Origin: Daphnia pulex | Lineage: Eukaryota > Arthropoda > Branchiopoda > Diplostraca > Daphniidae | DNA length: 64,000 nt | NCBI RefSeq assembly: GCF_021134715.1 | Contig: NC_060023.1 | Span: forward strand, 2,604,001-2,668,000 | Direction of reading: 5' to 3' | Shown here: positions 22,541-26,343 of the stretch, piece after piece | How positions within the stretch are numbered: position 1 is the first letter of the stretch | Layout of the letters: each line of letters opens with the position of its first letter | Position numbers and translations under genes: made by a program | Notes under the pieces: model-generated | Databases searched by the model: none | What the model saw: the letters and a program-made list of their open reading frames with translations, nothing else | Told to the model about the DNA's origin: nothing

Positions 22541-25500
22541 ATGGGGGGTCCAAAAGATTCAAAGAAAAAAATTAAAGGTAATTTGGACGATTTGAAACGT
22601 GAATTGGAATTGGACGAGCATCGCATCCCGGTGGAGGATCTTTACCGTCGTATGAAGTGCGACCCAGTTAAGGTGAGCTATCACACTTCATTTGTTTCAT
22701 CACTCTGTGTGTTCTTAACCAATCGTTTGATTGCATTCAGTTAAAATTGCTAGCATCATATATACGCACTATCTTTCAATTTACATGTCAATCCAATACT
22801 ACACTAAAGAATATTTTGTTATTGAATTTTTAAATAGGGCTTGACGACAGCGCAAGCTAAATCCAACTACGAACGTGATGGACCTAATGCCCTGACGCCT
22901 CCCAAGACAACGCCGGAATGGGTGAAATTCTGCAACCAGCTCTTCGGCGGTTTCTCAATGCTCTTGTGGATCGGCGCCGTCCTCTGCTACGTGGCTTACT
23001 CAATTGAAATCTACAGAAATCCTGAAGTCCTAGGCGATAACGTGAGTTATTTAAAAATCGAATGAAATCTAATTACACAATAACGCTTAATGAGAATTCA
23101 TTTTCAGTTGTATCTCGGCATCGCACTGACGGTAGTCGTGGTAGTGACGGCCATGTTTTCCTACTTCCAAGAAAGGAAGAGCAACAAGATTATGGAGTCT
23201 TTCAAGAATTTGGTGCCGCAATTTGCTCTTGTCATCCGCGACGGCCAAAAATCCACCATCAAGGCTGAACAGCTCACGATCGGTGATCTGGTGGAAGTCA
23301 AATTTGGAGACCGTGTTCCGGCCGACATCCGTATCTTGGAGGCCCGACAGTTTAAAGTCAACAACTCTTCACTAACGGGAGAATCGGAACCACAAAGCCG
23401 CACTCCGGAGTTCACCAATAACAATCCACTAGAAACCAAAAATTTGGCTTTCTTTTCAACCAACGCAGTTGAAGGTATAAATTATACAATTTTTCTCAAA
23501 TATTTGATGCGCAAGTGCAAAGAATAATTTACTGTGTCCAAATAGGTACGGCTCGCGGTATCGTGATTAATATCGGTGACAACACGGTGATGGGTCGTAT
23601 CGCTGGATTGGCTTCCGGTTTGGAAACGGGAGAAACTCCGATTGCCCGAGAGATCTCGCGTTTCATTCACATCATTACCGTAGTGGCCGTCTGTTTGGGT
23701 GTCATATTTTTCATCCTCGCCATGGTTCTAGGTTACAGCTTTTTAGAGGCTGCCATCTTTTTGATCGGTATCATCGTAGCTAAAGTTCCTGAGGGATTGT
23801 TGGCCACCGTCACAGTCTGTCTAACACTGACGGCCAAGCGCATGGCTAAGAAGAATTGTTTAGTTAAGAACTTGGAAGCCGTCGAGACCCTTGGATCCAC
23901 TTCGACTATTTGCTCCGACAAAACCGGAACTCTGACACAAAACCGCATGACAGTCTCTCACATGTGGTTCGACAACAAAGTCATCGAAGCCGACACCACC
24001 GAAAATCAAACCGGTATTTATTCAAATTCGCCGCATCAGTTAAAAATTTATGCAAACTTTTAATTATCATAATAATTTGAAGGTGCCCAATACGACAAGA
24101 CGAGTTCCGGTTGGAAAGCTTTGTGTCGCGTCGCTTGTCTGTGCAGTCGAGCCGAATTTGAAAGTGGACAACAAGCCGTTCCTGTTATGCAACGGAATGT
24201 TAACGGAGACGCTTCCGAAGCCGCTTTGCTCAAATGTGTCCAATTAGCCACTGGTGAAGCTATGGCCATTCGGGCACGTAATGCAAAAGTTTGCGAAGTT
24301 CCATTCAACTCAAGCAACAAGTATCAAGTGTCTATTCACGAAAACGAAGACAAGAAAGATGGCCGATATTTCTTGGCCATGAAAGGAGCTCCGGAGAGAA
24401 TCCTTGATCTCTGCACGACCGTATTCATTAACGGAGAGGACCGACCTATGGATGAGAAAATGAAGGAAGCTTTTAATTCGGCTTACATGGAATTGGGTGG
24501 AATGGGCGAGCGCGTTTTAGGTTTCTGCGATTTTCACCTACCCCTCGACCAATTCCCGAAAGGCTACAAATTCGACGCTGACGAGATCAATTTCCCAATC
24601 ACTGGACTTCGTTTTGTTGGCCTCATTTCCATGATTGATCCACCCCGAGCAGCTGTTCCCGACGCCGTAGCCAAATGCCGTTCAGCCGGAATCAAAGGTA
24701 TTTATTATTCATTTCACTATGTGGCAGTAGGCTGAATTTCAAACATTTTTTTCTCCCGTTATAGTTATCATGGTGACAGGCGATCATCCGATCACGGCCA
24801 AAGCTATTGCTCGTGCAGTGGGCATTATTACGCACGACAGCGAGACAGTTGAAGATATTGCCGCTCGTTTGAACGTGCCGGTAGATAGAGTGAATCCGCG
24901 CGACGCCTCTGCAGCAGTGATTTCTGGTTTGGAGCTGCGTGACATGGATGCTAACCAACTTGACGCAGTCTTACGTAATCATTCCGAAATCGTTTTCGCC
25001 CGGACCTCTCCCCAACAAAAGCTCATCATCGTCGAGGGTTGCCAACGTGCCGGTGCCATTGTGGCCGTCACAGGCGATGGTGTTAACGATTCGCCAGCCT
25101 TGAAGAAAGCTGATATCGGTACGTCTAACTTGATTTTAAAAATCCCTCGGATAAAAATTAATTATTGGGTGTTTGTTTTAAGGTGTGGCCATGGGTATTG
25201 CTGGCTCTGATGTCTCTAAACAAGCCGCCGATATGATTTTGCTTGACGACAATTTCGCTTCGATCGTAACTGGAGTAGAAGAGGGCCGTCTGATTTTCGA
25301 CAACTTGAAAAAATCCATCGCTTACACTTTAACTTCCAAAATCCCGGAGCTTTCGCCGTTCTTGGCTTTTATTTCATTGGGCATTCCGTTGCCGCTCGGC
25401 ACCGTTACAATTCTCTGCATCGATCTCGGAACGGACATGGTGTGCATATTGATCAAATCGATTATATTCTAATTTGTCAGCTGACGGTATGATTACAAAT

Positions 25501-26343
25501 TAGGTACCGGCCATTTCACTGGCTTACGAAGAGGCGGAATCTGACATCATGAAAAGGCGCCCACGTAACGCTCAAACGGACAAACTTGTCAACGATAGGT
25601 AACAATTTGTTGGCTGCATCAATTTTTGAAACAGAAAGTTAATGGAATCTATATTCTAGATTGATTTCCATGTCCTACGGTCAAATCGGTATGATGCAAG
25701 CGGCCGCTGGTTTCTTCACCTACTTTGTGATCATGGCCGAAAACGGTTTCTGGCCAATGTATTTATTTGATCTGCGAAAGCGATGGGACTCGAAGGCCAT
25801 CAACGATCTCCCAGATTCCTACGGACAAGAATGGGTACATCATAAATTTATTTTTCCAATTTCATTTTGATTTTAACTCAACATTTTTCAAATAGACTTA
25901 CGAACACCGCAAACAATTGGAGTTCACCTGCCACACGGCCTTCTTCGTCTCAATCGTGATCGTTCAGTGGACTGATTTGATTATTTGCAAAACCAGACGC
26001 AATTCGCTGTTCCAGCAGGGCATGCGCAATCACGTTCTCACTTTCGGTCTCTTCTTTGAGACGGCCGTTGCTTGCCTCCTCTCCTACACTCCCGGCATGG
26101 ACAAAGGTCTCCGCATGTACCCGCTCAAGTAAGTTTAAGTGTTGATCCATCTTCTCATTCAAGTGTAGTAATTGAATCCTCTTATTGAAATGCCGATAAC
26201 AATAATTTTCTGCTTTCTAAAGGTTTTGCTGGTGGTTGCCAGCAATGCCATTTGCTGTTTTGATTTTCGTTTACGACGAGATCCGCAAATATATTATCCG
26301 TCGCCATCCCAACGGTTGGGTAGAGAAGGAAACATATTACTAG
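22541..26343 (+). CDS. ATP1A: Na+/K+-ATPase alpha subunit, copy 3 (double-lysine KK type)
   Basis: Exons 22541-22672, 22838-23041, 23108-23474, 23546-24013, 24083-24697, 24765-25118, 25183-25439, 25504-25598, 25660-25834, 25896-26128 and 26223-26343 join in phase to 1006 aa. Catalytic motifs are intact: [13 protein letters not shown] (Asp at codon 359), [25 protein letters not shown], and a C-terminal ETYY. Two cation-site residues differ from copies 1 and 2. TM4 reads VAKVPEGLL (Lys at codon 314, AAA 23782-23784) and TM5 reads LTSKIPE (Lys at codon 766, AAA 25338-25340); both are Asn in ordinary pumps. From memory, the same pair defines Artemia alpha2-KK, a pump with reduced Na:K stoichiometry induced by high salinity. 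The TM6 region is also altered (ISLGIPLPL). All else points to a functional gene. Identity is certain; altered stoichiometry is inference. Confidence 0.95.

Follow-up and report, generated by a model that had tools for sequence, protein, structure and literature searches.

Three genes for the alpha subunit of the Na,K-ATPase (NKA) lie in tandem in the 64,000 nucleotides of Daphnia pulex DNA analyzed here (the window, C7:2604001-2668000 of the 133-Mb assembly over which the gene family was surveyed). In the third gene two asparagines of the membrane domain, one in TM4 and one in TM5, are replaced by lysine, and pumps are denoted NN or KK below according to the residues at these two sites. The features of the locus are as follows.

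5810-6251, + strand, 5' region of copy 1, aligning over 462 columns at 74% identity with 11578-12020 upstream of copy 2
6297-10566, + strand, copy 1, NN pump alpha gene encoding 1003 aa, with a single GC-AG intron (donor 9187)
12072-16163, + strand, copy 2, NN pump alpha gene encoding 1002 aa, its product the same as D. pulex protein P0006
22047-22084, + strand, block of 39 columns 5' of copy 3, 85% identical to 11604-11642 of copy 2
22541-26343, + strand, copy 3, Na,K-ATPase alpha gene with two membrane lysines, 11 coding exons, 1006 aa
22541-22672, 22838-23041, 23108-23474, 23546-24013, 24083-24697, 24765-25118, + strand, exons 1-6 of copy 3
25183-25439, 25504-25598, 25660-25834, 25896-26128, 26223-26343, + strand, exons 7-11 of copy 3
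23782-23784, + strand, codon AAA of K314 (TM4, VAKVPEGLL), AAC in copies 1 and 2
24978-25315, + strand, likely recent gene-conversion tract of copy 3 with copy 2 (14772-15108), nearly identical
25338-25340, + strand, codon AAA of K766 (TM5, LTSKIPE), AAC in copies 1 and 2
28400-32983, + strand, SLC12 gene for a Na-dependent cation-chloride cotransporter immediately 3' of copy 3, approximate bounds set by eye
41418-45148, + strand, pieces of a second SLC12 gene, with an SLC12 domain in 44819-45148

Both SLC12 genes or pieces are located downstream of the pump array on the same strand, and a BEL/Pao retrotransposon with an uninterrupted open frame of 1826 aa (35727-41204) is situated between them. 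Upstream of the array we find a deoxyhypusine synthase and a methyltransferase-like gene (2954-3745, 4039-4719).

In the exon model copy 3 runs from a start codon at 22541 to a stop codon ending at 26343 with zero internal stops, all introns are of the GT-AG type, and the translation ends in ETYY. With its catalytic motifs, ion-site acids and full length it is an Na,K-ATPase alpha subunit (P2C), and residues T762, S765, E769, D794, D798, Q913, D916 and E944 are those of the NN majority in an alignment of 275 proteins. An initial annotation of this stretch had described catalytic motifs and splice sites as intact, had guessed a freshwater branchiopod as the host and had placed lysine at both membrane asparagines of copy 3; all of this is borne out by the 11-exon model, by the motifs read in the translation, by the source being Daphnia and by the AAA codons at 23782 and 25338. 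The protein is identical in every letter to the NCBI D. pulex entry P0001, and dN/dS between copies 2 and 3 amounts to 0.114. The intact frame, the splice sites and this ratio rule out a pseudogene, and a sequencing or assembly error at the lysine codons is unlikely because the identical P0001, recorded on a contig of 12,288,052 bases as against 12,282,500 here, apparently stems from another assembly and the K/K pair recurs in three further Daphnia species. Note that the copy 1 intron with its donor at 9187 is GC-AG, but GT-AG in copies 2 and 3.

Copies 1 and 2 resemble copy 3 in their eleven coding exons and are its neighbours in one array, but they have asparagine at both sites; the proteins of copies 2 and 3 are 88% identical. 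Within the tract shared by these two, identical runs of at least 30 bp total 287 of 338 bases, and intron 6, which lies inside it, is 95% identical, as against 45-77% for the other nine introns. The last long identical run stops 22 bases before the K766 codon. This near-identity is likely to reflect recent gene conversion, and if the tract is real the KK state has outlasted conversion with an NN neighbour. A blastn comparison within the window (E 0.001) revealed no 5' similarity of copy 3 to the other copies beyond the block of 39 columns, so that the regulation of copy 3 has probably diverged from that of the NN copies.

A tblastn search of the window with copy 2 (E 0.01) yielded no further NKA relic. 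Elsewhere in the assembly there are NN alpha genes on C7 (9.16 and 10.17 Mb), one divergent gene on C2 (11.47 Mb) and, at 1.55 Mb on C1, an NKA alpha fragment (C1:1549500-1551800) that has pieces on both strands and is probably a relic. Together with the three tandem copies this set fits the six annotated D. pulex NKA genes given in the available text of PMC3793950. In the divergent NKA-like gene (C2:11464500-11470500, minus strand) TM4 reads AYVPQG, with tyrosine for the asparagine and glutamine for the ion-site glutamate, and TM5 reads YTMVTKIPEA, with lysine at the TM5 site and alanine at position 770; both TM6 aspartates are kept.

The pair of lysines found in copy 3, which has both residues of a KK pump, also occurs in D. 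galeata, D. carinata and D. magna and in alpha-A of Artemia franciscana. The 275 aligned proteins comprise 251 NN, 5 KK and 3 NK pumps, the latter all from fish; a further 13 are gapped at the TM5 site, and NY, NS and NE occur once each. Lysine at the TM4 site is found in 5 of 275, namely the four Daphnia proteins and the one from Artemia. At the TM5 site, where 262 proteins have a letter, it occurs in 8, the five KK proteins and three from fish; with lysine this rare at either site, the two in copy 3 are not a matter of chance. A search with the full-length protein gave 4 KK pumps, all from Daphnia, and 116 NN pumps among the 120 matches listed. When the TM4 stretch was searched, the lysine-bearing entries among the best 120 of 4,519 were the same four Daphnia proteins and Artemia franciscana alpha-A and none from outside these two genera, with other branchiopods possibly poorly represented. 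P0008 appeared to be a KN pump, but the pattern VAKNPE was a false match and the protein is NN. In the gene model of D. magna P0007, 32 residues around TGES are missing. The gene, its residues and their conservation are directly evident from the sequences.

The parallel to Artemia alpha2KK that the initial annotation had drawn holds, as UniRef alpha-A of Artemia franciscana (P0124; PDB 8k1l, which carries the name alpha2KK) has the same two lysines. It further shares A118, A304, L770 and T915 with copy 3 and likewise keeps the other tabulated site residues; the two proteins are 73% identical, and a separate origin is favoured by the trees described below. That the Artemia pump exports fewer Na+ per ATP, as the annotation had also stated, agrees with the 2Na:1K cycling given in the accessible part of PMC10812997, which is not the primary paper and which likens the TM4 and TM5 lysines of the brine shrimp pump to a tethered-cation mutant. 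A TM5 asparagine-to-lysine change is described for an alpha1 isoform of the catfish Heteropneustes, and also for trout and salmon, in passages of PMC6987325, where Jorgensen 2008 is cited for a TM5 lysine that lowers Na:ATP and suits freshwater Na transport. The three freshwater fish alpha1 rows in our alignment (P0165, P0176, P0230) resemble copy 3 in the TM5 lysine and in the replacement of Ile770 (3/3), but they are vertebrate genes that keep the TM4 asparagine (3/3) and have methionine rather than leucine at 770. Copy 3, having lysine in TM4, falls outside this fish-type class. The open-licence titles, abstracts and passages at hand make no mention of a Daphnia KK pump, which may be in print elsewhere, for example in the primary Artemia paper.

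The occurrence of the same double replacement in two branchiopod genera raises the question of its origin. Trees were calculated from 34 or 35 rows chosen from the 275 proteins, with the TM4, TM5-6 and TM8 columns left out of the main, 34-row tree; Artemia KK is a long branch in them, and the Artemia NN row is P0088, an unnamed lgn protein that we take, from its start, to be Artemia alpha-B. In the 34-row tree the four Daphnia KK proteins form a single clade (support 100/99) that nests within a Daphnia tandem clade (100/100) as sister to its NN members (91/79), and Artemia KK is placed apart from them on its long branch. The branches starred in the tree force two separate KK changes. Constraining all KK proteins to one clade costs 67 log-likelihood units without the TM4, TM5 and TM8 columns (AU test, p 4.15e-05) and 52 with all columns (p 0.0034), both under a quick LG+G4 model. 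The initial annotation had offered either an ancient branchiopod KK lineage or convergence, to be told apart by phylogenies with and without the lysine sites; convergence gains from the rejection in both cases, and the ancient lineage is disfavoured, although for residues 30-290, 330-750 and 804-1006 taken separately the p values are 0.138, 0.065 and 0.0085, so that only the last of the three parts rejects the all-KK clade. Support for the Daphnia tandem clade is 98-99.7 in every part, and that for the Daphnia KK clade is 94, 85 and 99.

Because of these trees and the rejection of the all-KK clade, and with two of the three parts not significant, we consider it most likely that KK evolved twice, in Daphnia separately from Artemia; overall, common descent of the KK state with Artemia alpha2KK is not upheld. 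Judging from the tree, KK arose in Daphnia no later than the divergence of D. pulex, D. galeata, D. magna and D. carinata. An ordinary pump would have been duplicated in tandem in Daphnia or its stem, and two AAC-to-AAA changes would have followed independently of Artemia, before D. pulex and D. galeata separated from D. magna and D. carinata.

The lysines are accompanied by further changes. A comparison with 29 NN rows singles out six residues that only the two KK lineages have, A118, A304, K314, K766, L770 and T915, and the changes common to Daphnia KK and Artemia KK besides the lysines are thus V118A, V304A, I770L and A915T. Of 19 Daphnia-KK-specific columns, six columns of an N-terminal extension having been dropped, 6 are also found in Artemia KK; without the two lysines the count is 4/17, versus 10/124 for six control clades (p 0.068, related rows being counted as independent), a weak enrichment that is suggestive. 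In the 275-protein alignment A118, A304 and T915 are seen in 4, 4 and 6 NN proteins, respectively.

These shared residues also bear on an alternative history, in which the branchiopod ancestor already had a KK pump that Artemia and Daphnia both retained, while gene conversion from NN neighbours overwrote the rest of the Daphnia gene and spared the residues critical for KK. The six exclusive residues are situated in TM2, TM4, TM5 and TM8 (helices assigned by eye), conversion between copies 2 and 3 is itself likely, and 37 of 976 windows of 30 residues, starting at 297-312, 741-746 and 886-903, resemble Artemia KK more closely than they do three NN rows from Daphnia, as such a history would predict; two gene parts, moreover, leave the all-KK clade unrejected. 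The clade is nevertheless rejected overall and in the last part, the Daphnia clade of KK and NN tandem copies holds throughout the gene, and the TM4 lysine appears in Daphnia and Artemia only among the 120 of 4,519 matches listed, where other branchiopods are perhaps under-represented. We therefore regard an ancestral KK pump as quite improbable.

Separate Daphnia origin also forms part of our preferred reading of the function, to which we assign a probability of about 0.55: copy 3 would be a working 2Na:1K pump that powers Na uptake from dilute water, where the gene itself is observed and stoichiometry, location and uptake role are what we infer. Each ATP would most likely drive the export of 2 Na+ and the import of 1 K+. 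Within the ion site the TM5 lysine would play the part of a tethered cation, tuned by the TM4 lysine together with A118, A304, L770 and T915. Since one Na+ fewer is exported per ATP, the pump could keep cell Na+ lower by a factor of some tens, and from a basolateral position in uptake cells it would allow Na+ to enter from dilute water, either passively or via an NCC-type cotransporter. Note that assembled-contig sources (jgi, lgn) contribute nothing to the four Daphnia KK entries, which counts against a working pump; the NN entry P0003, by contrast, comprises 16 sequences on 27 contigs (lgn).

For the energetics we used a haemolymph Na concentration of 60 mM, published values being 58-65 mM according to the available part of PMC2689847, and assumed K, voltage, ATP energy and the other concentrations. 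Under these assumed conditions the computed floor for cell Na is 0.33-2.9 mM with a 3:2 pump and 0.003-0.09 mM with a 2:1 pump, lower by 32- to 95-fold. An apical NCC in water with 0.5-1 mM NaCl requires cell Na below 0.025-0.5 mM, for which a 2:1 pump is mainly needed, although some settings let 3:2 suffice at 1 mM. At 0.1 mM the 2:1 pump reaches the limit at the most favourable settings only, no setting suffices at 0.05 mM, and entry via NKCC is computed to be out of reach for both pump types. Na uptake in D. magna is inhibited by bumetanide and in neonates by thiazide as well (PMC6114146, in part). The tie between Daphnia Na uptake and proton extrusion that appears in excerpts of PMC2689847 counts against our reading. 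The SLC12 genes adjoining the array belong to the NKCC/NCC type; the first has AA_permease domains in 29192-29542 and 30247-30480, the latter matching NKCC1 and NCC structures, and an SLC12 domain in 31355-31597; in the second, 41418-41837 looks similar to the first copy on visual inspection and has no Pfam match. Freshwater Na uptake appears to be the best-supported role of copy 3 because of the energetics, the bumetanide- and thiazide-sensitive uptake of D. magna, the adjoining SLC12 genes and the parallel with fish TM5-lysine pumps, and by analogy with those freshwater isoforms a use in ion uptake is plausible.

A pump of reduced stoichiometry could instead serve elsewhere, in salt excretion in brackish water, in the embryos of resting eggs or in some specialised tissue where the gradient is steep. 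Artemia is hypersaline, and Daphnia is a mainly freshwater genus. Just one Artemia NKA gene is up-regulated in salinity stress, as stated in a portion of PMC3793950 that cites the paper on the lysine-substituted pump, and copy 3 has a 5' region of its own, both of which fit such a use. On the other hand KK has been kept in four species of this genus, and the fish TM5-lysine isoforms are linked to fresh water in the passages of PMC6987325, so that we consider these uses unlikely compared with uptake. Highly improbable is a further proposal, that the lysines severely impair or greatly change transport, the protein having another role in signalling, as a scaffold or as a leak, given that the remaining tabulated site residues are kept, that dN/dS is low and that a brine shrimp pump with both lysines does cycle, according to the text seen of PMC10812997.

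The Artemia KK pump explained extreme Na gradients in an animal, and an independent freshwater KK pump, if true, would suggest that the trick suits the steepness of a gradient and not salt as such. It would bear on the question of what powers the Na uptake of small crustaceans in fresh water, and with Daphnia a genetic model is available for in vivo tests of a pump stoichiometry that is otherwise close to universal.

Residue 770 differs in all eight aligned pumps with the TM5 lysine. Ile770 is lost in 8/8 K766 proteins as against 3/251 NN proteins, a comparison in which related rows count as independent, and it is replaced by leucine in the KK pumps and by methionine in the three fish rows. 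To our knowledge a rule linking a TM5 lysine to the loss of Ile770 has not been stated before, and as a structural rule it is open to testing. We tentatively extend the argument to a wider and rather doubtful proposal, that a TM5 lysine lowering Na:ATP with nearly obligatory loss of Ile770 may be a route taken repeatedly, in Daphnia, Artemia, freshwater fish and possibly the divergent Daphnia paralogue, and that the Daphnia KK pump may at the same time drive Na uptake from dilute water via NCC-type cotransporters that a 3:2 pump could hardly power. T915, another of the companion residues, adjoins D916, which we take to be the TM8 aspartate of Na site III.
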